Below are positions 1,276 through 24,500 of a DNA stretch of 29,354 bases, one piece after another. The DNA lies in IMG/VR virus record IMGVR_UViG_3300009008_000183, positions 1 to 29,354 of that record. One strand, given 5' to 3'. The notes under the pieces are model-generated. The model saw only the letters and a program-made list of their open reading frames with translations. It was not told the DNA's origin and ran no database searches. The DNA is from a virus. A program made the translations under genes and the position numbers. Positions within the stretch are counted from its first letter, which is position 1, and each line of letters opens with the position of its first letter.

Positions 1276-3687
1276 ATGCAGATTAAGACAAATAATAGTA
1301 GTTCATTTCCCGATCAGATTGTACCGGATGCTGAGAAAGCCACTTGGGAGTATGGATTAGCAGTAGGTAGAGCTATTGAAGGCGAGTGGTTTAGAAATAC
1401 TTCAAACACTGGTTTTAGATTTGCTTCAAACTATAATAACTTTCATAGTTTAAGATTATATGCAAGAGGTGAGCAAAATGTTCAAAAATACAAAGATGAA
1501 TTATCTATCAATGGTGATTTATCTTATTTAAATTTAGATTGGAAGCCAGTACCTATAATACCTAAGTTTGTAGATATAGTTGTCAACGGTATTTCACAAA
1601 GAAATTATGAGATTAAAGCTTTTGCTCAAGATCCAGAATCTACTCAAAAAAAGACTATATATGCAGAACGTATAATTAGAGATATTCAAATAGCTGAATA
1701 TAACGCCGCTGTTAAAGCAACGTGGGGTATTGACTTATCAGAATCTAAAAAAGGGGAAGATACACCGAAAACAATGGATGAATTATCAGCTCACATGCAG
1801 TTAGATTATAAACAATCTATTGAATTAGCTGAAGAAGAATTAATTAGTCAAATTTTAGATAAAAATAAATATAATTTAACAAGAAAAAGATTAAATCAAG
1901 ATTTAACTATTTTAGGTATAGGATGTGTAAAAACTAGTTTTAACAAGTCAGAAGGTATTTGTGTAGAATATGTAGATCCAGTAAATTTAGTTTATTCATA
2001 TACAGAAGATCCAAACTTTGAAGATATATATTATGTAGGTGAAGTTAAAAGCGTTAGTTTACCAGAACTAAAAAAGCGCTTTCCAAATATATCTCCTGAG
2101 GAAATGATAAAGATACAAAAGTATCAAGGTAATACTAGTTATGCTCGAAACTGGAATGGTAGACAAGATGGTAACGCGGTGCAGGTTTTATTTTTTGAAT
2201 ATAAAACTTATACTAATCAAGTATTTAAAATAAAAGAAACTGCATCAGGACTCGAAAAAACATTGGAAAAAACAGATATGTTTAATCCACCAGAATCTGA
2301 TACATTTAAAAAGGTTTCAAGATCTATTGAAGTATTATATACTGGAGCTAAAATATTGGGTCATGAACAAATGTTAGATTGGAGATTAGCAGAAAACATG
2401 ACTCGACCTATTGCCAATACTGTGAAGGTTAATATGAATTATAATATTACAGCACCTAGAATGTATAGAGGTAAAATCGAATCATTAGTTAGTAGAATAA
2501 CTGGATTTGCTGACATGATACAATTAACTTCTTTAAAACTACAACAAGTTCTTTCTCGCATGGTTCCAGATGGTGTTTATTTAGACATGGATGGATTAGC
2601 TGAAGTTGATTTAGGTAATGGTACAAATTACAATCCTGCAGAAGCTTTAAACATGTATTTCCAAACAGGTAGTATAGTTGGTAGATCTTTAACTCAAGAT
2701 GGTGAAATGAATCGTGGCAAAGTACCTATTCAAGAATTACAATCATCGAGTGGTGGTGCTAAAATACAATCATTAATACAAACTTATCAGTATTATTTAC
2801 AAATGATTCGGGATGTCACCGGGCTTAACGAAGCTAGAGACGCTAGTACTCCAGATAAAAACGCATTAGTAGGATTGCAAAAATTAGCAGCAGCTAATTC
2901 AAATACTGCTACTAGGCATATTTTACAAGCTGGATTATATATTACTTTAAAAACATGTGAAAATATTACATTAAGAGTAGGTGATGCTTTAATGTTTCCA
3001 TTAACTAGAATGGCTTTACAAGATAGTATTTCAATATATAATGTAGCAACATTAGATGAAATATCTACAGCTAGTTTACATGATTTTGGTATATTTTTAG
3101 AACTAGAACCTGACGAAGAAGAAAAAGCATTATTAGAACAAAATATTCAAATGGCTTTACAAACTCAATCAATTGATTTAGAAGACGCTATAGACATAAG
3201 AAATATTAATAATCTAAAACTTGCTAATGAATTACTGAAGAAAAGACGTAAGCAAAAGTTTAAAAGAGATCAACAAGCTCAACAAGCTAATATACAAGCG
3301 CAAGCACAAGCAAATGCAGAAGCTGCGGAAAGAGCAGCTATGGCAGAAGTTCAAAAGCAACAAATATTAACAGAATCTACCTTACAAATAGAGCAAGGTA
3401 AATCTCAATTTGCTATTCAAAAAGCACAACAAGAAGCGGAATTAAAAAAGCAATTGATGCAACTAGAGTTTGAATTTAATATGCAACTTACTAAAGCTCA
3501 ATCTGAAAATAAAAGAACTGCTGAAACTCAAAAAGAAGATAGAAAAGACGAAAGAACTAAAATTCAAGCAACACAACAAAGTGAACTAATATCTCAAAGA
3601 AAAAATGACTCTTTACCTGTAGATTTTGAATCCAAAGGATTTGACAATCTTGGTGGATTTGGTTTAGAGCAATTTGCTCCTAGATAA
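1276..3687 (+). CDS. Portal protein
   Basis: Portal proteins form the dodecameric ring at one capsid vertex through which DNA is packaged and ejected, and they dock TerL and the neck. This 803-residue protein has the right place (directly after TerL, before scaffold and MCP). Its body includes a clip/stem-like central region and a conserved-looking stretch around VTGLNEARDASTPDKNALVG (about residues 516-535), followed by helices. The last ~150 residues (from about 655) are a long Q/A/K/E-rich helical tail (QAQQANIQAQAQANAEAA and so on), typical of the barrel and coiled-coil extension of large podovirus portals. It starts on the ATG abutting the TerL stop, with no Shine-Dalgarno. At ~800 residues it is longer than T7 gp8 (about 535) and nearer P22- or crAss-type portals. 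Assigned from position and sequence character. Confidence 0.9.
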   Translation: MQIKTNNSSSFPDQIVPDAEKATWEYGLAVGRAIEGEWFRNTSNTGFRFASNYNNFHSLRLYARGEQNVQKYKDELSINGDLSYLNLDWKPVPIIPKFVDIVVNGISQRNYEIKAFAQDPESTQKKTIYAERIIRDIQIAEYNAAVKATWGIDLSESKKGEDTPKTMDELSAHMQLDYKQSIELAEEELISQILDKNKYNLTRKRLNQDLTILGIGCVKTSFNKSEGICVEYVDPVNLVYSYTEDPNFEDIYYVGEVKSVSLPELKKRFPNISPEEMIKIQKYQGNTSYARNWNGRQDGNAVQVLFFEYKTYTNQVFKIKETASGLEKTLEKTDMFNPPESDTFKKVSRSIEVLYTGAKILGHEQMLDWRLAENMTRPIANTVKVNMNYNITAPRMYRGKIESLVSRITGFADMIQLTSLKLQQVLSRMVPDGVYLDMDGLAEVDLGNGTNYNPAEALNMYFQTGSIVGRSLTQDGEMNRGKVPIQELQSSSGGAKIQSLIQTYQYYLQMIRDVTGLNEARDASTPDKNALVGLQKLAAANSNTATRHILQAGLYITLKTCENITLRVGDALMFPLTRMALQDSISIYNVATLDEISTASLHDFGIFLELEPDEEEKALLEQNIQMALQTQSIDLEDAIDIRNINNLKLANELLKKRRKQKFKRDQQAQQANIQAQAQANAEAAERAAMAEVQKQQILTESTLQIEQGKSQFAIQKAQQEAELKKQLMQLEFEFNMQLTKAQSENKRTAETQKEDRKDERTKIQATQQSELISQRKNDSLPVDFESKGFDNLGGFGLEQFAPR

Positions 3688-4902: not shown

Positions 4903-6405
4903 ATGAGTTTTGTAACAGGCGGGAGTTTTCCCGCATCTTTAGTTCCTGCGCAATCTCAAATGGCATTAGCTAGTAACTATTTGACATTTGACGGTGCTGC
5001 TGGGAGCTTCGCACAACAATACCTACCTGAGCTTTATGAGCAAGAGGTGGAGAGATATGGTAATAGAACCTTATCTGGATTTTTAAGAATGGTTGGAGCA
5101 GAAATGCCAATGACCTCAGATCAAGTAATCTGGTCTGAACAAAATAGATTACACATTGCTTACAAAAGTAATACAGTTGCACTAGGCGGTGCTGGGGTTG
5201 CAGATATTACAGTAACACTAAATTTAACAGCTGCTAGTTCTCCTACTACAACAGTAACTTCTGGCGCTATTAGAGTAGGTCAGACAATTTTACTTTCTGA
5301 TCAAGCTACAGGTCTTGTGACTGCAAAAGCAATTGTAACAGCTAGAGCAAATTCAGGTGGTGCTTTAACAAATGATGTACTTACATGTCAACTTTATGAG
5401 ACTACTGCCGCTGCAATTCCTACGGGAATAGTATCAACTGGAGCAACAGATCTATTTGTATATGGTGCTGAATTTGGTAAAGGTACAGGTGGAATGGCTG
5501 AGTCTATAGAACCAAACTTTACTCAATATAGCAATTCACCAATTATAATTAAAGATAACTTCCAAGTTAGCGGTTCTGATGCTGCTCAAATTGGTTGGGT
5601 TGAAGTTGCTACTGAAGATGGTACTTCGGGATACTTATGGTATCTAAAATCTGAATCTGAAACTAGATTAAGATTTGAAGATTATTTAGAAATGGCAATG
5701 GTTGAAGGTGAACTAATGGTAAATGCGGTGACATTTACTGGTGCTGCTGCTGCTGCTGGTACTCAAGATGTAAAAGGTACAGAAGGTTTGTTTGCTGCTA
5801 TTGAAGCAAGAGGTAATGTATACTCTGGTTTTTCTGGTGCTGCTGCTCCTGGATCTGGTGCTTTAGGTGATTTTGATGAAATCCTTAAAAATCTTGACAA
5901 GCAAGGTGCTATTGAAGAAAATATGTTATTCTTATCAAGAAGTACAGCTCTTGATTTTGATGATATGATAGCTGCTCAAGCTGGTGGAGGTTATGCTTCT
6001 ACTGCTGCTGCTTCTTATGGTCTATTTGACAATGAAGAAGAAATGGCGTTGAATTTTGGATTTTCAGGGTTTAGAAGAGGTTCTTATGACTTCTATAAAA
6101 CTGATTGGAAATATCTTAATGATGCTTCTACTCGTGGTATGTCTGCAGAAATAGATGGTGTACTTGTTCCTGCTGGAACTACAACAGTATACGATCAAAT
6201 GCTGGGATCTAACATTAGAAGACCATTCTTACACGTAAGATACAGAGCTTCTCAAACTGAAGATAGAAGATTCAAAACTTGGATCACTGGTTCTGTTGGA
6301 GGCGCATATACGGACACTCTAGATGCTATGAATATTAGTTTCTTATCTGAAAGATGTTTAGTAACTCAAGCTGCAAATAACTTCGTGTTATTAAAAGGAG
6401 CTTAA
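4903..6405 (+). CDS. Major capsid protein (HK97-fold expected)
   Basis: This is the coat protein forming the icosahedral shell. The 500-residue length, place directly after the scaffold with an 11-bp gap, and Ala/Gly/Thr-rich composition fit an MCP. Residues ~1-75 (ending near MTSDQVIWSEQNRLH) form an N-terminal arm. Residues ~85-170 are beta-rich and Thr/Ala/Gly-rich, probably an insertion or elongated loop. The rest alternates helix and strand, ending NIRRPFLHVRYRASQTEDRR... and NFVLLKGA. There is no obvious prohead-protease cleavage site and no protease gene nearby. The ATG follows AAAACTAAAATT, without Shine-Dalgarno. A strong GC hairpin lies in codons 6-11 and an intrinsic terminator follows the stop. 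Those elements suit a very highly expressed transcript. Assigned by context; the fold is expected, not demonstrated. Confidence 0.9.
   Translation: MSFVTGGSFPASLVPAQSQMALASNYLTFDGAAGSFAQQYLPELYEQEVERYGNRTLSGFLRMVGAEMPMTSDQVIWSEQNRLHIAYKSNTVALGGAGVADITVTLNLTAASSPTTTVTSGAIRVGQTILLSDQATGLVTAKAIVTARANSGGALTNDVLTCQLYETTAAAIPTGIVSTGATDLFVYGAEFGKGTGGMAESIEPNFTQYSNSPIIIKDNFQVSGSDAAQIGWVEVATEDGTSGYLWYLKSESETRLRFEDYLEMAMVEGELMVNAVTFTGAAAAAGTQDVKGTEGLFAAIEARGNVYSGFSGAAAPGSGALGDFDEILKNLDKQGAIEENMLFLSRSTALDFDDMIAAQAGGGYASTAAASYGLFDNEEEMALNFGFSGFRRGSYDFYKTDWKYLNDASTRGMSAEIDGVLVPAGTTTVYDQMLGSNIRRPFLHVRYRASQTEDRRFKTWITGSVGGAYTDTLDAMNISFLSERCLVTQAANNFVLLKGA
4919..4934 (+). promoter_or_regulatory. Hairpin in the first codons of the capsid gene
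   Basis: GCGGGA-GTTT-TCCCGC forms a perfect 6-bp all-but-one GC stem with a 4-base loop, 16 bases after the start codon of the MCP. In such AT-rich DNA this is a conspicuous stable structure. It may stabilise or process the capsid mRNA or tune its translation. The role is inferred. Confidence 0.45.
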
Positions 6406-6416
6406 TATTATATAAT

Positions 6417-6441
6417 GAGAGCGACTTTTGTCACTCTCTTT
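6417..6441 (+). terminator. Intrinsic terminator after capsid gene
   Basis: GAGAGCGAC-TTTT-GTCACTCTC forms a nine-position stem with a single C/A mismatch and a 4-T loop, followed by TTTATT. It lies 12 bp after the MCP stop. It probably ends part of the capsid transcripts and protects their 3' end. Confidence 0.65.
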
Positions 6442-6465
6442 ATTAATCTTTTAAATATAGAAATT

Positions 6466-6834
6466 ATGGCAAGTTTAATTAAGATACCTTATGGCGCTGT
6501 AGGAGCAATGCCTGGATCTAATCCAGCTTATTTAGCCGTAAATGTCGAAGGAGTTTATTCTGTTACTGATAATGGCGGAACAGATGGTATTACGTTATAT
6601 TATGATCAATATGACGCAACTACACCTGCGAACTACTTAAATGTAGTTTTAAACTTCAAAGGAGCAGCTTCAGTTTCCGCTGCCGACATCACGACTTTTG
6701 CTAATTTAGTAGCTGAGGCATCTCAAGCAGAAAATAGCGTCCCTTCTTTTGAATTAGAAGGAGACGACGGTACAGATGATTATCATTTAACTCAACTGAC
6801 ACCATTAACATTAACATCGGCGGCGCCGGTTTAA
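6466..6834 (+). CDS. Small decoration/auxiliary capsid-type protein (paralogue 1)
   Basis: A 122-residue, Ala/Gly/Thr/Asn-rich, beta-type protein with no membrane segment, directly downstream of the MCP. It is probably a head-decoration or auxiliary capsid protein. Its C-terminal half is related to the next gene: VAEASQAENSVPSFELEG here and SAIQAENSIPTASFGG there, each preceded by a strand of the type ITLYYDQYD or TIRLWMKDG. An upstream in-frame ATG at 6415 would add 17 residues encoded by the terminator hairpin, so I chose 6466, which follows AAATATAGAAATT like other starts here. The last codons are unusually GC-rich (CGGCGGCGCCGG). No enzymatic motif was seen. The role is inferred from position, size and composition. 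Confidence 0.75.
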   Translation: MASLIKIPYGAVGAMPGSNPAYLAVNVEGVYSVTDNGGTDGITLYYDQYDATTPANYLNVVLNFKGAASVSAADITTFANLVAEASQAENSVPSFELEGDDGTDDYHLTQLTPLTLTSAAPV

Positions 6835-6844
6835 AAATATAGAT

Positions 6845-7477
6845 ATGAGTAATTATTTAAAAATAGCTATGTTACAGACTGGTTTAACAACCGCTGGAGA
6901 TGCTTTAAAAGCTTCTGTAACAACTGATGTATCAGGTGGATCTAATGGAACATTTACTGGTTTAACTGTAGCTGATGGTGATCTAACAATCGCTGATTCT
7001 GCAGGTGTAGCGAAAACCTTATCACAACCATGTACACTTAGAATTGTTGTTGCCGCTGGCACAATAACCTCTGGTGCTGGTGAGGCTACAGCAACAATAG
7101 CTGGAGAAGGATTTGCGGTTGGTGATACTATTACTATAGCAAAAGCTTCTATTGGAAGTCCAACGGCTGATGCTGTTATCACTATAGTGGCAGATGATTT
7201 ACAATCTGCTACAGTACCTGCTACTAGATATATTCCTGTAGAGGATATATTATATGTAGTACCATTATCTACAACTACAATTAGATTGTGGATGAAAGAT
7301 GGAGCTAATGTAGGAACAGGGTCTGACTCTTTGATAACATTTAGTAATCCAGCAATATCAATTGATGCTTTAGCTGGAAGTGCTAGTAATAGCATAATAA
7401 GTGCCATTCAAGCTGAAAATAGTATTCCTACCGCATCATTCGGTGGAATAAAACCTGTTTCAGTAGTAATGACCTAA
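6845..7477 (+). CDS. Decoration/auxiliary capsid-type protein with inserted beta module (paralogue 2)
   Basis: A 210-residue Gly/Thr/Ala/Ile-rich protein of almost entirely beta character. The C-terminal ~85 residues (from ATVPATRYIPVEDILYV) are related to the preceding 122-residue protein and share the QAENS(V/I)P motif. The N-terminal ~115 residues hold an extra Gly-rich beta module, including GEGFAVGDTITI (about residues 86-97). That resembles the GxGYxxGDxxTI modules in the neck and tail proteins downstream. I infer a head decoration or fibre-base protein that exposes the extra module. It starts 10 bp after the previous stop (ATG after AAAATATAGAT) and is followed by a strong intrinsic terminator. 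A long open frame on the opposite strand is only a shadow. Confidence 0.75.
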   Translation: MSNYLKIAMLQTGLTTAGDALKASVTTDVSGGSNGTFTGLTVADGDLTIADSAGVAKTLSQPCTLRIVVAAGTITSGAGEATATIAGEGFAVGDTITIAKASIGSPTADAVITIVADDLQSATVPATRYIPVEDILYVVPLSTTTIRLWMKDGANVGTGSDSLITFSNPAISIDALAGSASNSIISAIQAENSIPTASFGGIKPVSVVMT

Positions 7478-7488
7478 CAAACAATTAT

Positions 7489-7516
7489 AAGATCCCGCTT
7501 AGGTGGGATCTTTTTT
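7489..7516 (+). terminator. Strong intrinsic terminator
   Basis: AAGATCCCGC-TTAG-GTGGGATCTT forms a 10-bp stem (one G-T pair) with a 4-base loop and continues into a run of six T (TTTTTT, 7511-7516). It lies 11 bp after the paralogue-2 stop and is the clearest terminator of the capsid region. Confidence 0.88.
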
Positions 7517-7520
7517 AACA

Positions 7521-7540
7521 ATTATATTATATTATATTAT
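7521..7540 (+). repeat. Four tandem ATTAT units running into a start codon
   Basis: ATTAT is repeated exactly four times, and the last unit supplies the AT of the ATG start at 7539. This is the whole spacer between the upstream terminator and the gene. It is a short slippage-prone tract that could change spacing or act as an unstructured AT leader for translation. Confidence 0.8.
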
Positions 7541-8309
7541 GAAAACAAAAGAAAAAGAAGTTCCTGAAGTAAAAGATACTTGGGAATATAAAGATAGAAA
7601 TTACTATTTATTAGGCAATAAAGAACCTTTAACTTATACAATAGCAGCTAGACATACTCAAAGATATCCTTTAACTTGGTTTGATCCAGAATTAGGATAT
7701 GAAAGAGAGTTAAGATATGCTACTAATCAAAAAAGTATTTTTGTGGATGAGCAAGAAGGCCCATCTACTTTAAAACATATTGTATTTGAAAAGGGACATT
7801 TATTTGTAGGTAAAAATAAAAGAAATCTACAAGAGTTTTTGCTTAAACATCCTCATAAAGAGATTTTATTTACTGAATATGATGCAGTTGTTGAAGCTAA
7901 AGATCAATATAAAGATTTAGAACTTGAAATAAATGCTATGAATGCTGCATATAATATAGATGTAGATCAAGCAGAAGCTATATTGAGAGTAGAAAGAGGA
8001 TCTAATGTATCTAGTTTGAGTTCTAAAGAACTTAAAAGAGATGTGTTGATATTTGCTAAGAAAAATCCAAAATTGTTCTTAAATTTAGCTAGTGATGAAA
8101 ATATAGTTCTTAGAAATTTTGCTATTAAAGCAAGAGAGTTAGGTATTATAAGTTTGGCAAGTGATCAAAGAACTTTTAAATGGGGTAGTAATGGTCGTAA
8201 ACTTATGACTGTTCCTTTTGACGAAAATCCATATTCAGCTATGGCTGCATGGTTTAAGACAGATGAAGGGTTAGAAGTTTATAAGTCAATAGACAAACGT
8301 TTATCTTAA
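7539..8309 (+). CDS. Conserved structural-region protein of unknown function
   Basis: A 256-residue soluble protein, Lys/Glu-rich and mostly helical after residue ~110, without signal peptide or membrane segment. Residues ~15-85 form a mixed alpha/beta region with the motifs YPLTWFDPELGYERELRYAT and QKSIFVDEQEG. Residues ~105-180 are strongly helical (DLELEINAMNAAYNIDVDQA). The N-terminus is charged (MKTKEKEVPEVK). I do not recognise a named family. Lying between decoration and neck genes and bounded on both sides by terminators, it is probably a virion or assembly protein. An in-frame GTG at 7503 lies inside the upstream terminator and would add 12 odd residues, so I chose the ATG at 7539. 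Confidence 0.82.
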   Translation: MKTKEKEVPEVKDTWEYKDRNYYLLGNKEPLTYTIAARHTQRYPLTWFDPELGYERELRYATNQKSIFVDEQEGPSTLKHIVFEKGHLFVGKNKRNLQEFLLKHPHKEILFTEYDAVVEAKDQYKDLELEINAMNAAYNIDVDQAEAILRVERGSNVSSLSSKELKRDVLIFAKKNPKLFLNLASDENIVLRNFAIKARELGIISLASDQRTFKWGSNGRKLMTVPFDENPYSAMAAWFKTDEGLEVYKSIDKRLS

Positions 8310-8336
8310 AAATAACACTTAACGTGTGATTATAAT

Positions 8337-8368
8337 AAGGGTGGCCTAGTCGCCACCTTTATTTTTTT
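8337..8368 (+). terminator. Intrinsic terminator upstream of neck genes
   Basis: AAGGGTGGC-CTAGTC-GCCACCTTT forms a nine-position stem with one G-T pair and a six-base loop, followed by ATTTTTTT. It ends only 13 bp before the next start, so the neck and tail genes must rely on read-through or on a promoter overlapping the hairpin. Confidence 0.82.
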
Positions 8369-8381
8369 AAAAATATTAAAT

Positions 8382-9416
8382 ATGGTTAATGTAGATACAG
8401 TTTATAAAACGGTTTTATATATCTTAAATAAAGAGCAAAGAGGTTATATACCACCAGATGAATTTAACAAATTAGGAATACAAGTTCAACGTGAAATATT
8501 TGAACAATATTTTGAAGAGTTAAATCAACAATTACGTATACCTCAAACTGATAATGAATACGCTAATCGTATAAAAAACCTAGAAGAAAAAATAGATGTA
8601 TTTAAAACTAATGCTGCGTGTACAGGGGCAAATCCTTTTACATTACCAACAGATTTACATCGACTAGGTACATTAATTTATAATGTAAATTCTAAAGAAA
8701 TTCAAGGCGTAAATAGAAATGAATATTTCTTAATCAATAAATCTCCTCTCACAGCGCCAACAACAACAAATCCATTATACATATTAGAAGGTACTGGTGC
8801 TCCATCAGCCGCACCTAGCACTGCCACAGTATTTCCAAATACAGGTACTAATGCTATTACTACTGGTCAAGTCGATGCTTATTATGTTAAAGCTCCAGCA
8901 GATCCTAGATGGGGTTATTCATTAGGAAGTGCAGGACAATATTTATATGATAGTACAACATATGGGGCAACTTTATTAAACAATGGAGGAACGTTAAGTT
9001 CAATAAAAACTAATCCTACGGGGATTGCTCCTGATAAAACTTACACTGGATTAACCACAACGGTTACTCCAGCCGGTGGATCTGGAGCTATACTGTCAGC
9101 AGTAGTTACTGGAGGAACAGTAACATCCGTTACCGTAACTACACCAGGATCAGGATATAGTCCTGATGATGAAATAACCGTATCCTCTGGTCAATTCACA
9201 GGTGCGCCAAGTAGTGACTTAGATATTACCTTAACAGCTGCAGATTTTAACGCTAATAGTACCTATGGTTCAACTCAATTTGAATTGCATCCTTCTGAAC
9301 AAACCAATATAATACTAAATATACTGATGTATTCTGGTATTATAATAAGAGATCCACAAATAGTCCAAAGTGCTGGTAAAATGATACAGCAAGATGAAAT
9401 GGTAGAAAAACAATAA
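8382..9416 (+). CDS. Neck/ring (head-tail connector) protein with inserted beta module
   Basis: A 344-residue protein. Residues 1-75 are helical with a distinctive NKEQRGYIPPDEFNKLG motif (about 17-32) followed by a heptad-like stretch. I associate this N-terminus with connector-type proteins of marine podoviruses. The C-terminal ~50 residues (ELHPSEQTNIILNILMYSGI to the end) are again helical. Between them lie about 70 residues of Gly/Thr-rich beta sequence (roughly 220-290), with VTTPGSGYSPDDEITVSS at its core. This looks like a module inserted between AYYVKAPADPRWGY and the helical C-terminus. The neighbour downstream is a second neck protein 6 bp away, so the two are co-translated and probably stack under the portal. 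The ring role is inferred from order and remembered family resemblance. Confidence 0.72.
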   Translation: MVNVDTVYKTVLYILNKEQRGYIPPDEFNKLGIQVQREIFEQYFEELNQQLRIPQTDNEYANRIKNLEEKIDVFKTNAACTGANPFTLPTDLHRLGTLIYNVNSKEIQGVNRNEYFLINKSPLTAPTTTNPLYILEGTGAPSAAPSTATVFPNTGTNAITTGQVDAYYVKAPADPRWGYSLGSAGQYLYDSTTYGATLLNNGGTLSSIKTNPTGIAPDKTYTGLTTTVTPAGGSGAILSAVVTGGTVTSVTVTTPGSGYSPDDEITVSSGQFTGAPSSDLDITLTAADFNANSTYGSTQFELHPSEQTNIILNILMYSGIIIRDPQIVQSAGKMIQQDEMVEKQ

Positions 9417-9422
9417 TAAGAT

Positions 9423-10550
9423 ATGGCATTATTAACAGAAACTAACGAACAATACTACGCAGGTCAACAAGCTTACGTAGGTGATAATGTAAAAGTAAAT
9501 TTTTTATGGACTGGAGATACTACTTTAGTCGGAACTGTAAGCGGTATTTCATTTACTAATTTTACAGTAACATTAAATAATGTATTACAAGTTGAAGGAG
9601 TAGATTACACATTATCTGCTACTGCTAATACTGTTCAATTTACAGTAGCTCCTGCTCTTGGATTAGTTGTTGTTATTGAGTTAGTAGATGATGCTAAATG
9701 GGCTAATTATGGAGGTTATGCTTATATAACTATAGAAGAAATAGTTAATAACTTTTTAGTAGCATATGTAGGTGATGGGAAATTAATACCTAGTGTTAAA
9801 AGAACAGATGTTATATTTCATGCTAAACGTGGATTACAAGAATTTAGTTATGATACTTTAAAAAGTATTAAATCTCAAGAATTAACAATACCTCCAAGTT
9901 TATCAATAATAATTCCACAAGATTATGTTAATTATGTAAAATTATCATACATAGATGATGTAGGTATTAAACATATTATATATCCCACTACTTTAACTAG
10001 TAATCCATTTACTGTCCCAATTCAAGATGTTGATGGAGTACCTACTCAAGATAGCTTGGGTGCTAATTTAGAAGGTACTTCTCAAACTAATGAAAGATGG
10101 GATAATAATAATTTATTTAGAACCAATTTAAATAATCAAGAAAGTCTTTATTATGATTATAATAATTGGTGGATGTATCGTTATGGTCGAAGATATGGAC
10201 TTCAACCCGAAGTTGCTCAATCAAATGGTTGGTTTACTATAGATGAAAGAGAAGGTAAATTTTCTTTTAGTAGTAATTTAGCTAATCAACTGATAATTTT
10301 AGAATATATATCTGATGGTTTGTCTAGTGATTTAGATACTAAAGTGCCTAAAATGGCAGAAGAAGCTATGTATATGCATATTGCTCATTCTATATTAGCA
10401 GGTAGAGCTGGAATTCAAGAATATGTTGTAAGAAGATATAAAATAGAAAGAAGAGCAGCACTTAGAAATGCTAAGATTAGATTATCAAATATTAAATTAG
10501 AGGAATTTACTCAAATAATGAGAGGTAAATCTAAAATACTTAAAAATTAA
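9423..10550 (+). CDS. Tail tubular A-like / adaptor ring protein
   Basis: A 375-residue protein in the place of T7 gp11 (tail tubular A), the ring between portal and nozzle. Residues ~24-88 are a beta module with FTVTLNNVLQVEGVDYTL and VAPALGLVVVIEL, the type of small repeat common in phage tail and fibre proteins. This looks like an N-terminal addition. The core starts about residue 95: a helix (ITIEEIVNNFLVAYVGDGK), a gp11-like helical region (FHAKRGLQEFSYDTLKS), then IPQDYVNYVKLSYIDDVG. Near the end there is a helix-rich segment that is strongly basic (YVVRRYKIERRAALRNAKIR). Residues ~215-270 are Asn/Tyr/Trp-rich. It starts 6 bp after the previous stop and is followed 6 bp later by the large tail protein. 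The role comes from order and general resemblance. Confidence 0.72.
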   Translation: MALLTETNEQYYAGQQAYVGDNVKVNFLWTGDTTLVGTVSGISFTNFTVTLNNVLQVEGVDYTLSATANTVQFTVAPALGLVVVIELVDDAKWANYGGYAYITIEEIVNNFLVAYVGDGKLIPSVKRTDVIFHAKRGLQEFSYDTLKSIKSQELTIPPSLSIIIPQDYVNYVKLSYIDDVGIKHIIYPTTLTSNPFTVPIQDVDGVPTQDSLGANLEGTSQTNERWDNNNLFRTNLNNQESLYYDYNNWWMYRYGRRYGLQPEVAQSNGWFTIDEREGKFSFSSNLANQLIILEYISDGLSSDLDTKVPKMAEEAMYMHIAHSILAGRAGIQEYVVRRYKIERRAALRNAKIRLSNIKLEEFTQIMRGKSKILKN

Positions 10551-10556
10551 AATTCA

Positions 10557-13500
10557 ATGGCAGAAGTAAAACAAAATTTTCTAAAGTCTAAAATGAATAA
10601 AGATTTAGATGATAGATTAGTTCCTAAAGGAGAATATAGACATGCTCAAAATATATCTGTTGCTAAATCTGAAGGTCAAGATGTTGGAGCTCTTGAAAAT
10701 ATTTTAGGTAATAATTTAATTAGTAATTTTACTTTACCTACCGATACATATGGTGTAGAGATTATTGGACATTTTATGGATGTTAGAAATAATCGTATAG
10801 TAGTTTTTATGACTAATTATGTAGATACATCTAGTGATGCATTATCTAGTTTTTCTCCTGCTGGCGCTTATCATGCTATCGGTGTTTATGATGTAACTAG
10901 TGCTGTTAGTTCTATTGTAGTTACAGGAAGATTTTTAAATTTTTCTAAAACACAAGAAATATATGGCGTGAATATGATTGATAGTTTATTATTTTGGACA
11001 GATAATAGAAATCAACCTAGAAAAATAAACTTAACAACAGCTATAGGGAATAATAGTTATTATACTAGTGAAGATCATATTTCAGTATCAAAATATTATC
11101 CATATCAAACAATAGATTTAATAACTAACGAAGTTGTTGGTTTGGTTGGTTTACCTGTTCCAGGATCAGGGTATACTACTACTACTAACGTTGCTACTAG
11201 TGGAGGTACGGGTGTAGGATTAACATTAAACTTAGTGCTTGGAGGTGGTGGAGCGGTTAATATAGCGTTTGTAAATAATCCAGGAATTGGATATACTAAT
11301 GGAGATGTAGTTAATATTATTGAACCTTTCGTAGGTGGAGGAAGTGGCGCTACTGTTACACTTACCGTACAATCAGCAAGTACAATGCGAGATGTTGTTA
11401 GTGATTTCTTACCAGATGGTACTACTAATAATCCTTATAGACAACCCACTGGTACTATAGATCCTATTACTTGGCCCGGAGATGCTGAATATTTAAAAGA
11501 AAAATTCGTTAGATTTAGTTATAGATTTAAATTTGATGATGGAGAATATTCTTTAATAGCTCCATTTACTCAAACATGTTTTATTCCTAAACAAGATGGA
11601 TATTTTATTGGAGATGACGATGCTAAGACATTTAAGAGTACAGAGGTCGGATTTATGCAAAATAAGGTTAATGATATAAAATTAATAATTAATTCTCCTA
11701 CTGGTGATTGGAATGACATAGATGACGCTCTTAAAGTAGAAGAAGTGGATATTCTTTACAAAGAGGCAGGTCAAAATACAATAAAAATAGTTGACACTAT
11801 TACTAATGATGAATTAAATTTAGTTAATTCTACATATTTAACATATGATTATTTATCATCTAAACCGTGGAAAACTTTACCAGAAAGAGAAATATTAAGA
11901 GTATCTGATCAAGTTCCAGTAAGAGCTTTTGCTCAAGAAGTAGCCGGAGATAGAGTAATTTATGGTAATTATATAAATAAACCTACTCCACCCTCAACAA
12001 TAAACTATTCTTTAAATATTAGTGAAAAAGATGTTAACACTCAAATTGAATATCAAAATCAAAATCTAAAACAAAACAGATCTTATCAAGTAGGAATTGT
12101 TTTATCAGATAGATATGGAAGGCAGTCCACTGTAATTCTTTCTAGTTTAGATGATAATATAGGATCCTCCTCAATAAAAGGTTCTAGTATTTTTAATAAA
12201 TTTAAAGAAAGTCCTTTTTCGCAATATAGCGCTGGTTCTTTATTAAGTGCAGGTGATGTTTGGGATGGAGATAATTTAGAAATGACATTTTGGGATACAA
12301 TATCTTCGACTAGAGATAATAACATAGGAACACCTGGATTATACGATGCTACAACTAATCCATTAGGTTGGTACACTTATAAAATAGTAGTTAAACAACA
12401 AGAGCAAGATTATTATAATATATATTTTCCAGGAATATTAAATGGTTATATTGATGGAGATGGTGCAGGCACAGAAGCAACAGCTGATGAACCAGTATGT
12501 CATTTTGTTTTACAAGGAGATAATATAAATAAAGTTCCTAGAGACTTATCTTTAGTAGGTCCAAATCAAAATATTTTCAGAACAGGTAGACCTAGTATAC
12601 AACAAGATCCTGGTTATTATAAATTTGTTGATAGTAATGGGGTAGGATTTTCAGCAGATCCATTATCAGAAGAAGGAGAAAGATTATTAAAAGAAAGAGA
12701 CAGAGAAAGAGATTTAGATTCTGGTAGTCAAATAACTAATGCTAGTGTTAAATTGTCATTAAGACTTAATAATACCATTGGCGCTACAGCTCTTTTTCCG
12801 ACTACTCAACAGTTTTATCCAGATACTCGTGTAGATACTGTTACCACAATTGGAACAGGTTCAGAGTTGGGATTATGGGATCCTTCGGCTATACCTCCGT
12901 TTAATACAGCTAATGTCTTTTATTCATATGAAAACAATCCATACGTAGCTAAAGAAAATGTATTATCTCAAATTGTATATCCTGGAGCTGTTGGCCCTAG
13001 TGCTTTAGCAACAAAAGTTGGACTTAAAGGTCCTCATCCAAACTCAGGAAGATTAAATTTTAAAATAGCACTGACTGATCCTGGAACTGGTTATATTGCA
13101 GAAAGTAAAAATATTAGTTGTGATATACCTAGTTCTAGCGCTGGAACAGGTTTTAAGGTTAATATTGATAAAGCCACAAGTGGAAATATTGATGCAGGAG
13201 GAATATCTATAGCAGATCCTGGAATAGGATGGGATATATTAGGACCAGCATCTCCTGGCGGCATAGCTAATTGTATAATAACAGGCGCTGGTAATGGAGA
13301 TGCGCAATTTACTTTATCATGGACAAAAACCTCTTTTGCTGGAAACATGATTCCCTCGTTGTCAGTATATGAAACAGAACCATTGGAAAGTAAGTTAAAT
13401 ATATATTGGGAAACTTCATCTAATGGGTTAATAAGTGAATTAAACACGGCGGTACAAAGTGGAGATGTTACAACTCCAGTAGGTTTTATTGGTACAGGAT

Positions 13501-14192
13501 CAAATCCAATAGAATATATTCAAACAGAAAACAACAATACTGGTACAAATATAACATCAAATGCAGCATTATTTGCTACAAATGTAAGTGGTAATATTAT
13601 ATCAGGACCTATTACATTTACTTTAGATAGTGTTATAGATGGTTATAGTGTAGATAGAGCAAGCGACTTTACATTAGAAGACGCACCTGTGGGATATCCT
13701 GACGGATTTAAATTAAAAACAAATGCTTTATTTGTATGTGATCATGACAATCTTGTAAATAATACGTTTATATTTAATATTAATGTAAATGCTCCAAGTG
13801 CTACTTACGGTAGCGATGGCACGTTTATAGATAGACAATTATCTTTAGGACCTTATACATTGGAAAATGTTGCACCAGCATTTATCGCTAACCCAGCTCC
13901 TCCATATTTATCTTCTAATCCTAATAGCTCTATTGGTACATGGCGAGCTTATAATGGATCTTATGTACTTGGAAGTTTAAGAGCTCAAGGATTAAATTGG
14001 GAAATAGTAGATTATTATACTCGCTTACCAATCCCTCAACTATATTTTGTTCCAACAGGTAATTTAGGAGAAATGAATATATTTGTTGATAATAGCGTTA
14101 CACCGGGACAAGTAATTACTTTTGAGTTAGTTGTTACTGACGGATTAGGAGTTGCTACTACACCATTAATTTATGGATTAACTATAACTTAG
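10557..14192 (+). CDS. Large tail tube/nozzle ('tail tubular B' or muzzle-type) protein
   Basis: A 1,211-residue, beta-rich protein occupying the place of T7 gp12, which forms the tail nozzle. The N-terminus is distinctive: LDDRLVPKGEYRHAQNISVA, then SEGQDVGALENILGN (residues ~17-52), which I associate with tail stabilisation or nozzle proteins of marine podoviruses. A run of beta-propeller-like segments follows (FWTDNRNQPRKINLT about residue 144; RFSYRFKFDDGEYSLIAPFT about 318). Two Gly-rich modules seem inserted: about 198-275 (PGSGYTT, PGIGYTNGDVVNI) and about 841-930 (DPGTGYIAE, ADPGIGWDI). The second is followed by YETEPLESKLNIYWETSSNG. The C-terminus resembles a cadherin-like or Ig-like end (FELVVTDGLGVATTPLIYG). 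There is no signal peptide or membrane segment. The next gene encodes a second propeller-type tail protein. Confidence 0.78.
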   Translation: MAEVKQNFLKSKMNKDLDDRLVPKGEYRHAQNISVAKSEGQDVGALENILGNNLISNFTLPTDTYGVEIIGHFMDVRNNRIVVFMTNYVDTSSDALSSFSPAGAYHAIGVYDVTSAVSSIVVTGRFLNFSKTQEIYGVNMIDSLLFWTDNRNQPRKINLTTAIGNNSYYTSEDHISVSKYYPYQTIDLITNEVVGLVGLPVPGSGYTTTTNVATSGGTGVGLTLNLVLGGGGAVNIAFVNNPGIGYTNGDVVNIIEPFVGGGSGATVTLTVQSASTMRDVVSDFLPDGTTNNPYRQPTGTIDPITWPGDAEYLKEKFVRFSYRFKFDDGEYSLIAPFTQTCFIPKQDGYFIGDDDAKTFKSTEVGFMQNKVNDIKLIINSPTGDWNDIDDALKVEEVDILYKEAGQNTIKIVDTITNDELNLVNSTYLTYDYLSSKPWKTLPEREILRVSDQVPVRAFAQEVAGDRVIYGNYINKPTPPSTINYSLNISEKDVNTQIEYQNQNLKQNRSYQVGIVLSDRYGRQSTVILSSLDDNIGSSSIKGSSIFNKFKESPFSQYSAGSLLSAGDVWDGDNLEMTFWDTISSTRDNNIGTPGLYDATTNPLGWYTYKIVVKQQEQDYYNIYFPGILNGYIDGDGAGTEATADEPVCHFVLQGDNINKVPRDLSLVGPNQNIFRTGRPSIQQDPGYYKFVDSNGVGFSADPLSEEGERLLKERDRERDLDSGSQITNASVKLSLRLNNTIGATALFPTTQQFYPDTRVDTVTTIGTGSELGLWDPSAIPPFNTANVFYSYENNPYVAKENVLSQIVYPGAVGPSALATKVGLKGPHPNSGRLNFKIALTDPGTGYIAESKNISCDIPSSSAGTGFKVNIDKATSGNIDAGGISIADPGIGWDILGPASPGGIANCIITGAGNGDAQFTLSWTKTSFAGNMIPSLSVYETEPLESKLNIYWETSSNGLISELNTAVQSGDVTTPVGFIGTGSNPIEYIQTENNNTGTNITSNAALFATNVSGNIISGPITFTLDSVIDGYSVDRASDFTLEDAPVGYPDGFKLKTNALFVCDHDNLVNNTFIFNINVNAPSATYGSDGTFIDRQLSLGPYTLENVAPAFIANPAPPYLSSNPNSSIGTWRAYNGSYVLGSLRAQGLNWEIVDYYTRLPIPQLYFVPTGNLGEMNIFVDNSVTPGQVITFELVVTDGLGVATTPLIYGLTIT

Positions 14193-14226
14193 TAAAAATA
14201 ATACCTAATAAGTAATAATATTAACT

Positions 14227-15936
14227 ATGGCATATCAATTAAAAGTAAAATATTTCAATTCTTTCGTTTTAAGAAAAGTCGTTAAAACTGGTGATGTTCA
14301 AACTGGTAGTTGGCCTAGCTTACCATGGGCACCTACCGCTATAGGAACTGATGGTATTTCTAGATCTTATCCTAATTTTCCTTGGGGTGTATATGGAACA
14401 ACAGCAAATGAATATGTAAATTGGTATTTAGAAGAATCTAGAATAAAAGGTGGTTTTAATAATAGCATTATGGACTTAGGTGTTAGAGCTTATGCTGTTA
14501 ATAATAAAACTGATCAAGATGATAGATCTAGTAGTTTAATATTTTCTGGAATTTATAATGATAGAACAGGATTTAATAATACTAATGTATTTTCTATTAG
14601 TGAAAGTATAATTAGAGATGCAGATCCTAGTCATGGTAGTATTCAAAAATTGTATGCAGAAAATACAAATTTACTAGTTCTTCAAGAAAATAAAGTCCAT
14701 AAAGCATTAATTGATAAAAGTACTATATATAGTGGAACTCAAGGATCAGAAGAATTATTAGGAGATCCTAGAACTATAGGACAATTAGTTCCTTATGCAG
14801 GAGAATATGGAATTAGTAGAAATCCAGAATCATTTGCAATATATAGTAATAGAAAATATTTTGCTGACAAAGATAGAAATGCTATGTTAAGATTATCTGC
14901 TGGTCCTGATGGTGGAGATGGTATAACTGAAATATCTATGTATGGTATGCGAGATTATTTTAGAGATGAATTATCTACTATTGCTGACAATAGAACAAGA
15001 AGATCGGTGTTTAAAACGCAAGTAATTGCTCCTGGAACCTATACTACGTTGACATTGCCTAATGTAACTAATATTGAGGTAGGAGCACAATTAGAAGTAC
15101 AATACTCTACTGCAGGTGTAACCACTACAACTAGTATTGTAACTGGTATACCTAGTTCTACAACTATTACTATATCACCAAGTTATACAGTGGATCCTAC
15201 TTTAGGTACTGTACAAGGAGTAAATATTATAACATACAGAAGAGATAAAATTTATGGAGGATGGGATATTCATAGAAAAAATTATACAGCATCATTACAA
15301 CAATCTTCTAGATTTATTTCAACAGCTGAAGATTCTTTTAATACTTTAAGTTTTGATGAAAATGCTAAAGGTTGGACTAGTTTTTATAGTTATAAACCTA
15401 TATTTTTAGGTAGTTTAAAAAATAAGTTTTATACTTTTATCAATGATGAGATATATGAACATTATGTATCAATAGGAAATAATCATTGTAAATTTTATGG
15501 TAATGCAACTCCAGATGAAGCTAGTGTAGAATTAATATTTAATCCTAGTCCATCTATTAAAAAGAATTTTAACACTATATCCTATGAAGGTGATAATGGA
15601 TGGGAAGTGGAATCTATAATATCTAGTAAACAAGGAGTTGATAATGGGATTCAATATCAAGATACTGGAAATCCAATAAAAAGTTATGATGAAGGATCAT
15701 ACATAGAAAATGGGGTTACTTATCAAGCAGGATTTGATAGAAAAGAAAATAGATATGTAGCTAATATAGTAAATGCTAGTAGTGTAAGACCAGGGGAGAT
15801 AATATTTGGAAAAAGTGTTAGTGGTATAAAAGGATACTTTGCTACAGTTAAAATTAAAGTTGATTCAACAACTAATGTAGGAGGTGCTAAAGAATTGTAC
15901 TTAGCATCGTCTAACTATGTAATGTCATCTTATTAA
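14227..15936 (+). CDS. Beta-propeller-type tail protein
   Basis: A 569-residue beta-rich protein following the large tail protein. Recurring hydrophobic/aromatic strands with Asp/Asn turns suggest a propeller, as in tail-hub or stabilisation proteins. Recognisable stretches are WYLEESRIKGGFNNSIMDLG (about 59-78), SIQKLYAENTNLLVLQENKV (about 138-157), YAGEYGISRNPESFAIYSNR (about 196-215) and NFNTISYEGDNGWEVES (about 446-462). Residues ~265-335 are a separate Thr/Val-rich beta insert (TYTTLTLPNVTNIEVGAQLEV). It probably works with the upstream protein to close or extend the short tail and may contact the cell surface. No catalytic motif was seen. The gap before it is 34 bp of AT-rich DNA. I have seen this kind of protein in marine phages as a separate gene, so I do not call it a broken half. 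Confidence 0.75.
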   Translation: MAYQLKVKYFNSFVLRKVVKTGDVQTGSWPSLPWAPTAIGTDGISRSYPNFPWGVYGTTANEYVNWYLEESRIKGGFNNSIMDLGVRAYAVNNKTDQDDRSSSLIFSGIYNDRTGFNNTNVFSISESIIRDADPSHGSIQKLYAENTNLLVLQENKVHKALIDKSTIYSGTQGSEELLGDPRTIGQLVPYAGEYGISRNPESFAIYSNRKYFADKDRNAMLRLSAGPDGGDGITEISMYGMRDYFRDELSTIADNRTRRSVFKTQVIAPGTYTTLTLPNVTNIEVGAQLEVQYSTAGVTTTTSIVTGIPSSTTITISPSYTVDPTLGTVQGVNIITYRRDKIYGGWDIHRKNYTASLQQSSRFISTAEDSFNTLSFDENAKGWTSFYSYKPIFLGSLKNKFYTFINDEIYEHYVSIGNNHCKFYGNATPDEASVELIFNPSPSIKKNFNTISYEGDNGWEVESIISSKQGVDNGIQYQDTGNPIKSYDEGSYIENGVTYQAGFDRKENRYVANIVNASSVRPGEIIFGKSVSGIKGYFATVKIKVDSTTNVGGAKELYLASSNYVMSSY

Positions 15937-18530: not shown

Positions 18531-21500
18531 ATGAATCCAGAAGCATTAGAATATAGTTACGGGTTATTTCAAAATGACGGATATGACGGTAGTTTAGAAG
18601 AGTATCAAGAGTTAATCTCTACTAATCAAGAAGCTAAAGATTATTCGTTTAATTTGTTTTCAGCAGATGGATATAATGGTTCTCTTGAAGATTTTTCAAA
18701 TCTTATAACAAGTGAAATAGTACCCGAGGCAGGAGCTCCAGTTGCAGGAATAGATAAAACTGAATCTGTCTTTTACGAAGATGTAGAAATTGAAGAACCT
18801 GCACATTCAGAAGAAGAAATTAAAGAAGCTAATATCTGGGTTACTCCTGATATGATACAAACTGCAAATAAAAAACTTAAGTGGAATGAAGATATTTCAG
18901 AAGATAATTATGATGCGTGGGTTGGAGATAATGCTGATGGTAAAGTAGTTGAAGCTTGGGATTTATATAAAAGTGAAAACCTAGGAATTGAAAAACAACC
19001 TGGTCAAGAAGCTATCACTATTGAAGGTTTAAATGAAGCTACATTAGAAGATATTACTCCAATAATTAATAGAGAATATGGAAGTAGTGATTTAAAAATA
19101 GATACTTTTGTTGATTATTTAACTGAACAATCTTCTAAAATTGAAAAAGAACAACTAAAAGAATTAGAAAAATTATTAGGTAAACCTATTGAAAAATTTG
19201 CCACTACAAATAAAGATGGAAAAAAAGTATATGATATTCCTAAAGATAAAATTGATGAATTTAATGCTATTGTAGAAAAATATAGAGATAGTAATAACAA
19301 TATAAATAGAAATTGGAGAAAAGCTAGTATGATCATTGATAAATATAATGAATTAGCAGAAGCAGCAGGAAAAACAAGTGGTGACACAACTCCAATCATA
19401 GATAAAGAATATTTAAATGCCGGTCTTCAAGTTGAAAGATATGACAAAGACACAGGTGAAGTTATTGAATCTTGGCCTTATAATGAAGTAAAGTCTATGT
19501 ATATTGACAAGCCAAAAGCGAAGACTGGAACATCTGAATTTAAGGATGTTCAGGAATATGTTGATAGATGGAATGAAAGTTTACGCTATAGAGTAAAGTC
19601 AGATGGAATTAAATCTCGTAATACACGAATGCGAATTGCTACAAAACAAGGGCCTGGAGAGATGCTTGAAGAAATTGAAATTGTAACTAAAAAAGAAACT
19701 TGGGATGATAAAACTAGAAAGAAATATCTTAAAGGCGTAGATAAAAAAAGAAATCTAAAATATTGGGAAAATTTATTAAAGAATGAAAGAAGTAATGATA
19801 TATTTACACAAACTCAAGCTGGTGGTAGAGCATTTTTAGAAACTTTTCTTCCGGACGCATTTACAGTTGTAGAAACTGGTGCAGGAGTTACTGATTGGGT
19901 TACAATTAAACATAATGCAACTGGTGAAACTGTGCCAATAGGATTTGATTATGATGAAACAGATAAAAAGAAAATTACAGAGCAAAAAACTAATTTAATA
20001 GCTTTTTTATCAACATATAGTACTAGAGAAGAGATGGAAGAATCTCGTGAAAAAAGTATGAGTAATTATCAAATATTTAAGAAAGCATCACTTTTAACTC
20101 CTGATGAAGATGGGTTTAATGTAGATGATTTAAAAATACAAGCTTATGATAGATATTCTATTAATGCAACTCCTAATTTATTTAGTCCTAGTTTCAAAGG
20201 AATACCAAAGTCTTCTTTATATGAAGATGATGCTCATTCATTAGCGTATGGACCTGCTTATAGTTTAGATGCAATTAAAAGAATGAATATTGAAGGTATT
20301 GAAGATTTAAGGGAAGATCAAGCTTATCGTATTATATTTAATAAAAACGCAGTTAAAGCTCAAAAAGATGCATTGCAAATTTTAATAAAAGAAAGAGAGC
20401 AAGAAGGAGTAAAAAATGGAGAAACTCCAGAATTAATTATTGGATTAGATCATGATTCTAGTATAGCTAAAGGATTAAATATAACACAAAGGGAAGTTGA
20501 TAATTTAGCTAGAGAAATATTAGGTGATGATAATTGGCAGAAAGTACAACAAGACGCTTTTGAGAAATGGGTGGAAAATGACAAGTGGTGGGATAAAGAG
20601 ATAAAAGATCAAATGGGTGTTATGTTTATGAGTATGGTAGATAAAAATCAAGTTACCAGAAAAGCTATGTTAGCTAGCTCTTATTTAGAACACACTACAA
20701 ATATATTAAAACAATATATTGATCCTGATTTAGAAGATGCTATTGATGAAACAGATCCTAGAAAAATGCTATATTCTAACATGTTTAAAGAATGGAAAGA
20801 TGATAAATCAATAGATTATGCTTTAACAATTAAACCTGGGCAAGGATACTATGTAATAGATGAAAGAAAAATACCATCTTATATAATTGATGGTATGCGT
20901 CAAGAGAATCAAAAACTTAGTTTAGCTTATAAAAACTATGAAGATGCTAAAATGTATGCAGATTTTGCGGTTAATAAAGTAACAGAGTTTGATGATAAAT
21001 GGAGTATATATAAAGCTAATTATAATGATGCTCAAGCTGCTGGTACTGCTTTTGTATTAGGTACAGTAGGTATAGTTTTAGATATAGCGCATGGAGCATA
21101 TAAATTATCTACACTACCTACTGACATAGCACTTACAGCTTACGGATTAGATGATCAAGATATTGTTGATAATGTTATGTTTAAATGGCACTCATTTGTT
21201 GATCGTGAAAAAGGACAATTTGCTAGAGTTAAATATGGACAGTGGTATGACACTGAAGGAAATCTTCAATGGGGTCATCTTGGTAGCTATTGGTTCAATA
21301 CTGGAGCTGAGCAAATACCAATTTATGCGGCTATGATAGGTGCTAATCTATTATTTCCAGGTAGTAGTTTAGCTATTGGAGCTACAGCAGGTTTATCTAC
21401 TTATTCTAGTACAGATTATAGAATGAGAAGAGAAGTAATGGACGGAACTGCTGAATGGACGCAAGGAGAAATTATTTACAAAGGTCTTTTATCGGGGCTT

Positions 21501-24500
21501 AATGAAACTCTTTTAACAACTATGTTTGGTGGAAATTTATTAAAAAATTCTAGTAAAATTTTAAGAGGGAATAAAGCTGCTAGGGCTAAATTTAGCACAG
21601 GTAAATTAGATTACCTTCGTAATACAACCCCATTAATAATTAAAGGTTACATTAGTGAAGCAACTGAAGAATCTTTGATTAGACTAAATGACAATCTTAT
21701 AATGAATAGACCTTGGCTTGAAGGTGTAGAAGAAGCGGGAGTTGTTGGAGGATTTTTTGGTACTACAATGACATTAACGCCAGCAATATATCATATGGTA
21801 TCTAATAATTTTACTAATGGAGAGTCATTAAATAAAATGAGGGAAAATAATGAAGCATTAGGTAATCTTTATAGTGAAAATGATATAATAGGAGAAAAAA
21901 TAAGAGAATTAGAATATAGAAAATTTAATCAAAATATTACAGAAAAGCAACAAACTCAAAAATTAATTGATGATTACAAATTAATAATAAATAATAATAA
22001 TACAATAAAATCAGAACTTACTACTGAAATTGCAGAAGTACTTGATGAGGTACAAGAAAAAATTGTGGGAGAAGGACTTAGTGTAGAAGCTTTTAATGAT
22101 TTTACAATAAGTTCTACAGGTTTGTTTGATTTAGATAATCAAATTAAAGAAGTTGAAAAAAGTGATATGGACAAAAAAAGTAAAAAACAATTACTTAATA
22201 TATTACAATCACAATTCAATGGTATAAGATCTAATTTAGAAAAATTTAAATCTAAAAAACTGTGGGGACATGGATATTATTCTTTATTAGCAAGTTCATT
22301 TTTAAATAAAAAGAATAAAGAACGTGTAAGCGAACTTAGAAAAGAAGCAACTACGCGTATATTAGATAAAAAAGGTAGTGAGCATGATATAAGTCAAAAA
22401 GAATTAGATCAAGAAAGTGCTACTATATACATGGAGCAGGAAGTATCAAAACAATTAAAAATTGATAAAAAAGGTAATAAAGATTTAAAATCTGTAAAAA
22501 CCAAAGAAGAAGGAGTTGTAGAAATTACTAATTATTATGACAGTTTAATTGAAATAGCTGAAAAAGAAAATAACTTAAGTCAAAAATTAGCATTAGAAGC
22601 ACAAAAAAGAAATGCTGTAGAAGCTATAAATTCGGGTTCTGTAAATGGAGTTTATTTAAAAACTGGAAATATAAAAGATTATACTCTAAATGAAACATTT
22701 TTAGCTATTGAAGAAAACATGGTCGCTAATGAAAGCAAAATGGCAGGAGCACATGAAATTGGACATGGATGGAGTGTTAGAGCAATGGCAAAAGATCCTA
22801 AACAATTTAAGGAATTTGGAGAAGTATTAACTAAATACTTACAAGAATCACATGCAGATGTTTGGGAATTAATTGAAGTTGAAAATACAAACTTATATAA
22901 TGAAGATGGTACGTTAGATTATGAAGAAGTAATGTCTTCTTTTTTCGAACAAGTAGGTAAAAATAAAATTAGAATAAATAAAAAAGGTGTATGGCCAGGA
23001 TTATTTGGTAATATATTAAATAAAGGACTTAAAACATCTACAGGTAAGACTATACCTTTTAAAGGACAAAATGATATTGTTAATTATTTATATGGCGTAG
23101 CTAAAAGTATAACTGATGGAACATTAACTTTAAAAACTCCAGTTGATCCATTTAAAAGATTAGAAGTAGATAAAGATGGAACTGAAATCTCTGAAGTAAG
23201 TAAAACAGATATAACACCTAAGGTTTCAAAATCTGAATCAAGAGCACGTAAAAAAATAAATAGAGATAGAAAACAAGTTGGTGAACAAATAAATGAATTA
23301 GCAGGGGATATTCAAAATGCTAATGAATTAGCCACTAATTTATATAATGAAATATTGAATCCAGAATCAACTAGTAGTAGCGCTAGAATGATAGATAATA
23401 TAATAGATAATCAACTACGTATAAATGGAATAGATGTAGCTGCAGGTAATGTTTACAATAAACCTATAAAAGAATTTAGAGATGAAGTAAAAGATCAACT
23501 GTTAGATAAAACCATAATGCGTTTTGATCCTAAAAAAGCTGTTAAAAAAGATGGTGTATATGATCCAGGTGGATTTATTGTTTCTGAATTAGTTAATTAT
23601 AGAATTGGAGATGTATTAAAAAAATATAAACCTAAAGCAGGAGAAGTATCAATTGACGCTCCTTTAGAGTCTGGTAAAACTAGAGAATTTGTAGACGAAA
23701 GTATAGATATTGAAGGTGCAATAGATGAAAAACCTACAGTAACTCCAAGATCTAAAATAAAAAAAGAAGCTCCAGATTTAGTAACTCAAGAATTAGAAGA
23801 TTTAATTGAGGCAGCAGTATTAGAAATTGAAGCAGGAGTAAGGCCTGATGTAGATGATAAAGCATTTAAACCTTTTATACAAGAAGTGTTGGAAGGTAAG
23901 CTTACTAATAAAGTAAAAGATAGATTTGGTAAAGGCGTAGAGTATGATAATTTTATTAAGAAATTTGCTCCAGTTTTAAAAAAATCAATGCCACCACAAT
24001 TTTTTGTTAAAATTGAATCTCAAATAAAACCAAAAGATAGACAGTTTACATATCCTCCTAAAAGATTAACTACACAAGCTGAAATAGATAAAGCTATGAG
24101 AAGTGATCAAGTATATGTAGAAAATACTGCACAAGGTGTTAATATGTATAAGTTAAAAGATTTTTCAAGTAGAGATTTAGCTAATTTCTTATTACCTCCA
24201 GCAATTCATCCTAAAACTGGTAAGAAAAGTGGTAGAAAAGGAACTATAAAAACATCTGTAGCTAAATCTGTTGGAGTAGAACTAGGTAAAGATATGATAC
24301 CTTCAACATTTATAAATAAAGTTCCTCCTGCTGAATTAGCAAAAATTAATGTTAAAATTCAAAGAGATCCTATAATAAAATTTAGTGCTAACGTTATTAA
24401 TAAAGCTTCAGAAAATTTTTATAAGAAAAATAATTTAGAATTTCCTGGACATCTTGTTAATACCAATGCTAAACATGTATATAATTATCAACAAATAACA

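Follow-up and report, generated by a model that had tools for sequence, protein, structure and literature searches.

The window described here is the complete 29,354-nucleotide record IMGVR_UViG_3300009008_000183, a 29-kb virus contig that holds the structural gene block of an uncultured marine phage on its + strand, the strand of the structural genes and module copies located below. Three of its virion proteins, a small head-associated protein, a neck protein and a muzzle-type tail protein, contain copies of one Gly-rich beta module. This module is a real, promiscuous accessory virion domain: the same domain is present in unrelated virion proteins and is optional in relatives. Because some relatives lack the domain, and in others a copy has moved between proteins, these phages appear to shift it around their surface as an accessory piece. 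PHROG, Pfam and tblastn matches place the phage far from, yet kin to, the cultured Cellulophaga phage phi38:1 (Pervagoviridae), the Flavobacterium elemo phages and the crAss-like phages.

Homologous copies in three virion proteins

The sequence-only reading of the window had pointed to four similar Gly-rich segments with a GxGY-type motif in these proteins, and every peptide that it quoted was found where it had been placed. They are GEGFAVGDTITI at about residue 87 of the 210-residue protein (open reading frame (ORF) 6845-7477), PGSGYSPDDEITV at about residue 255 of the neck protein (ORF 8382-9416) and PGIGYTNGDVVNI at about residue 242 of the tail protein (ORF 10557-14192), in which PGTGY and DPGIGW follow at about residues 842 and 888, respectively. 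The literal motif G-x-G-[YFW]-x3-D-x3-I has three occurrences among the window's proteins, one of them in an unrelated 3,353-residue ORF, compared with an expectation of 0.024 from shuffling. The bare GxG[YFW] motif occurs 12 times against 4.6 in shuffles, a 2.6-fold excess so modest that the short motif is weak by itself, and motif counting as sole proof was set aside as too weak to decide.

The test profile was a hidden Markov model (HMM) built only from the neck-protein inserts of relatives. It matched the 210-residue protein (E-value 2.6e-8, 30.3 bits) and a first site in the tail protein (E-value 3.9e-5, 20.1 bits), against a maximum of 8.4 bits in 200 shuffled proteomes. An independent search of the whole contig with alignment A2 returned exactly three places, with E-values of 7.8e-23, 1.7e-16 and 9.5e-14, of which the second belongs to the tail protein and the third to the 210-residue protein. 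The first copy spans residues 23-119 of the 210-residue protein (6911..7201). The second, with its linker, corresponds to residues 190-296 of the neck protein (8949..9269; HMM core at residues 205-289), a block that relatives have or lack as a unit, and the third to residues 191-275 of the tail protein (site 1; 11127..11381). These profile matches show the three copies to be homologous, representing one predicted beta-rich domain of roughly 85-110 residues.

The remaining segment lies at site 2 of the tail protein, where residues 802-926 (12960..13334) are removable and residues 835-892 (13059-13232) form a candidate diverged module. The latter scored 7.8-11.1 bits with an extended module HMM and is co-linear with the model, and about two in 1,000 shuffles of the tail protein equalled its score. 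Of the four segments originally proposed, three thus hold by profile comparison with shuffles, and the fourth, at 8-11 bits, is probably a diverged copy.

The AlphaFold2 (AF2) model of the neck protein is good, with a predicted local distance difference test (pLDDT) score of 89. It consists of three helices and a beta-sandwich, with the module as an extra all-beta unit between two strands. The core of the model resembles the crAss001 tail-barrel chain 7qoj_E (Foldseek 1.1e-4; VIA Z 13.4 over 195 residues, root-mean-square deviation 4.6) and further ring and adaptor proteins (Z 7-10). Together with the match to PHROG 14543 over residues 2-183, this identifies the predicted neck core as a crAss-like tail-barrel ring protein. 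The neck module itself (residues 196-290) weakly resembles EF-Tu/eIF2-gamma barrels of the EF-Tu domain III type (Z ~4), which we set aside as a common small-barrel resemblance. A profile search of the PDB with the neck family gave nothing significant.

Optional insertion and exchange between proteins

We compared the window with 80 loci anchored on the major capsid protein (MCP) and with two further sets (loci labelled L###). The flanking regions are conserved cores, as the sequence-only reading had claimed, and its proposal that one module was copied and inserted at several points agrees with what is seen in relatives: every site is empty in some of them, and copies move between proteins. 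That the stretches are integral core strands of all relatives was rejected, as each site has relatives without the stretch.

In the neck protein (8382..9416), the segment between the conserved strands is bimodal across relatives, at either 14-32 or 111-131 residues. After dereplication at 90%, 31 of 77 relatives have the module (328-368 residues in total, one 444) and 46 do not (231-269 residues), without overlap in length; the neck insert is all-or-none. The module-free neck protein of L036 is 74% and 81% identical on the two sides of the module site. At the DNA level, a single block of 327 bp cleanly separates the neck genes of L149/L150 from those of L162, L165 and L167. The neck proteins of these last three are 84-88% identical to that of L070, itself identical to that of L149. 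The site is also empty in the 232-residue neck protein of phi38:1 (gp095), and no module copy was found in the four phi38:1 homologues checked. Neck-like proteins with the module at another site, after about residue 80, are encoded in L033 (8474-9466) and L139 (7727-8710), the former being a second paralogue beside a module-free one.

In the 210-residue protein (6845..7477), encoded by the second gene downstream of the MCP gene, the module interrupts a core made of a first strand, MSNYLKI, followed by RYIPVEDIL...QAENSIP. The label 'decoration' for this protein derives from gene position only, and no match to it was found among named phages. Short module-free versions of about 90-130 residues occupy the same place in many relatives. 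The long form with the module was found in 24 loci, always beside a short form, while 66 loci have short forms only and 57 have no gene. C-terminally, long forms match the profile of the short forms from its position ~10-18 (E-value 9e-5 for L117, 0.002-0.01 for others), and an N-terminal strand M-x-x-Y-I-K is common to both forms. An insertion point after strand 1 of a small protein is therefore moderately supported by these alignments. As 57 of the 147 loci have no gene between those of the MCP and of the 268-residue protein, the small head-associated proteins are themselves optional. The window encodes a short module-free companion as well (6415..6834), matched from residue 18 by the HMM of short forms (E-value 7e-6). 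Translation of the companion probably begins 51 bases into this ORF, at 6466 (MASLIKIPYG).

The 1,211-residue tail protein (10557..14192) corresponds to the N-terminal part of a muzzle protein, with matches to PHROG 14478 and, over residues 7-167, to PF25731 (crAss_MUZ; 32.9 bits for a cut-off of 27, with partial coverage). Site 1 is shrunk to 2-11 residues in six relatives (L034, L038, L078, L088, L089 and L097), and the site-2 segment to 7-18 residues in L097 and L071. The muzzle modules of relatives are located near positions 63, 190-275, 245-289, 421-427, 599 and 632-640 of the window's tail protein. The C-terminal muzzle part is a separate 569-residue protein (14227..15936; PF25729, crAss_MUZ_C, 35.4 bits for a cut-off of 27, with partial coverage) that has no module in the window, and its homologue carries one in eight loci (L042, L149, L150, L161-L163, L165 and L166). 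The muzzle is thus split into two ORFs in the window (10557-15936) and is a fused ORF in L079 (14246-18913) and L031 (10263-15956). Residues 257-341 of the 569-residue protein form a beta insert devoid of GxGY, which is missing from L078.

Comparisons between copies indicate the passage of entire copies from one gene to another. Within L149, the DNA of the neck copy is 83.9% identical to that of the muzzle copy over 211 bp without gaps, and within L070, 83% over 190 bp. The L079 muzzle copy shares 64-66% identity with neck copies from other phages, neck copies are the nearest relatives of the L019 muzzle copy (residue 305), and the same holds for the copy in the 210-residue protein of the window (43-44% identity). 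These identities show such a passage to have occurred at least once recently inside one genome. A tree of 105 copies, built on a short alignment and with many forks open, implies 18 changes of host protein (minimum 3; 47 in shuffles), several of which are forced by starred branches. On this tree, copies appear mostly inherited in place, with repeated exchange between proteins.

Surrounding genes

A partial terminase gene (49-1275), the portal gene (1276-3687) and the MCP gene (4903-6405) lie upstream of the module-bearing genes. The 268-residue protein is encoded between the 210-residue protein and the neck protein, and a 375-residue protein (9423-10550) between the neck and tail proteins. The N-terminal beta region of the latter (residues 1-95) is present in most relatives and gone from L059, L062 and phi38:1 (gp096); it is another optional module, of another sequence type. 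The 3,353-residue ORF (18531-28592) gave no match in the Pfam search. Inspection by eye revealed a HEIGH metalloprotease-like motif at about residue 1405 and a DFDDTLA HAD-like motif.

Possible roles and comparison with known systems

The explanation that we favour, with moderate confidence, is that of an optional, exchanged virion domain that would promote low-affinity, multivalent attachment to glycans of the host envelope or to particles, or else alter surface properties. The domain, self-contained, predicted to be beta-rich and about 85-110 residues long, is optional wherever it sits in the loops of virion proteins: between strands 1 and 2 of the small head protein, between two strands of the tail-barrel ring and at several points of the muzzle. 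The GxGY and GD residues would serve for tight turns and domain packing rather than as a binding site. The insert probably points outward, as insertion is tolerated at these sites, and since a virion contains the ring, muzzle and head proteins many times over, a single insertion could put many copies on display. Its spread probably involves recombination or gene conversion between module copies. An adhesive surface role, which the sequence-only reading had tentatively proposed for particles or glycans, is plausible by analogy with Ig-like domains and with the BppA-type carbohydrate modules of lactococcal 936 phages.

Several points weigh against this explanation. Copies mostly cluster by host protein (the 18 changes against 47 in shuffles), so that much of the pattern is vertical descent and loss, and a copy found in the same genome could derive from another phage. 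No ligand, conserved surface patch or aromatic binding site was identified for the module. The sequence-only reading had suggested comparing predicted structures; the neck copy gave a good model, and the muzzle copy alone a mediocre one (pLDDT 73), for which the fold search had no match at an E-value below 2. Because of that model, and because no solved fold was matched, the claim of a single module with a single fold is carried by sequence.

The module might instead be a neutral or stabilizing spacer in tolerant exposed loops, spread by recombination and devoid of a binding role. Its conserved residues look structural (Gly turns, Tyr and Asp) and its loops are variable, and phi38:1 and many relatives do without it. 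We nevertheless consider this unlikely, as the module has been retained and acquired repeatedly at many sites of several proteins and one record contains 5 to 6 matches, which suggests some benefit.

Domain I of T4 gp18 brings to mind another role, in which the module would serve other parts of the virion, such as tail fibres, as a platform for docking or assembly. The gp18 domain comprises about 90 residues in a six-stranded barrel plus a helix. It is an outward-pointing insertion domain that binds the retracted long tail fibres (PMC3004832), and the crAss001 rings R1 and R2 touch tail-fibre hubs (PMC10172136). In the PDB search with the module profile, gp18 domain I was the sole biologically sensible solved-structure motif match (E-value 0.024), the others being merely short Gly/Ser matches, e.g. 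to antibody light chains. Its family, PF22639, was matched by five of 37 copies (best E-value 0.0029), and profile-profile comparison gave a probability of 86-89% with an alignment of only 22 of 100 columns. Both are insertion domains with a common motif, I-x-x-P/A-G-S-x-Y-x-V-G-D-x-I-x-V. However, nothing aligns beyond those 22 columns and no fold match was found; gp18 is not among the matches reported for the neck or muzzle-copy models, although this absence is not proof of a different fold. The kinship is a lead, not membership. A specific partner is also difficult to reconcile with a module that occurs in head-associated, ring and muzzle proteins alike and has been lost from close relatives, and a docking role thus seems rather improbable.

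Convergence of Gly/Thr-rich turns among unrelated beta proteins, which the modest excess of the bare motif and the biased composition could suggest, is practically untenable given full-length profile matches far over shuffles, block-like presence and absence and a DNA identity of 83-84% between neck and muzzle copies, which contradict convergence at three of the four sites and leave tail site 2 alone as a place where it may still fit.

The favoured explanation, an exchanged surface domain, likens the module to the Ig-like domains that Fraser et al. (2006), as cited in PMC10684548, are said to have described as insertions in phage structural proteins. Phage Ig-like domains are optional beta domains of unrelated virion proteins, thought to work by weak surface interactions. 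The module resembles them as an optional beta domain common to unrelated virion proteins, but it has another sequence motif, sits in loops and is copied between genes of one genome. Ig-like Pfam models gave no match in the three window proteins at an E-value of 1, and one of the 37 copies matches a Big model (E-value 0.07). In 936 lactococcal phages, carbohydrate-binding modules (CBMs) with demonstrated binding are present in Dit, MTP and neck proteins, and one strain-variable BppA-type module occurs on tail, neck and baseplate proteins (PMC6669499). The module is likewise a single, strain-variable type on several virion proteins. In contrast, it belongs to marine crAss-related phages and is known here from sequence, binding being demonstrated only for the 936 phages. 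The Pfam search found no CBM family in the window's proteins, and one of the 37 copies matches such a family (E-value 0.056).

The insertions IG1 and IG2 of the crAss001 muzzle, thought to change surface properties (PMC10172136), are beta domains inserted into a protein of the same family, and the PF25731 alignment suggests that tail site 1 is near the place of IG1. The module differs from them by its own sequence and its many alternative sites.

Module copies also match 20 PHROGs, including virion protein 6005, tail fibre 5342, baseplate wedge 32294/438 and head closure Hc2 460. A canonical muzzle copy retrieved 72 records, nearly all of marine cyanophages, whereas the neck module of the window had no match at an E-value of 0.01 in a protein-level search of named phages. 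The wedge proteins and gp14 of cyanophage P-HM2 hold several module relatives. T4-like cyanophages are thus like the window in having clear module relatives in several virion proteins (gp7 wedge, gp14 Hc2 and tail fibres; PHROGs 6005, 5342, 438 and 460), and unlike it in that the stretches are often many-copy and in very long proteins. We found no described function or family name for these cyanophage GxGY stretches. A broader idea, somewhat short of probable and put forward tentatively, is that of an unnamed promiscuous domain family that would span T4-like cyanophages and marine crAss-related phages and include gp18 domain I as a remote relative. Active copying of the domain among the head, neck and tail genes of a single genome would then let the phage retune its whole surface with one domain type.

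Boundaries can now be given to the Gly-rich stretches that, in marine phages, lie behind many proteins annotated 'virion structural protein, unknown', and the near-identical natural pairs with and without the module make its function directly testable. Our literature search, mostly without subscription papers, turned up no paper that gives this domain a name. Shuffling of domains among phage proteins is already known (PMC10684548), mainly from receptor-binding proteins, endolysins and some replication proteins. In the present case a small domain moves among core virion genes, in a marine phage group that is abundant and uncultured, and what is new is the domain, its boundaries and its copying between such genes within one genome.

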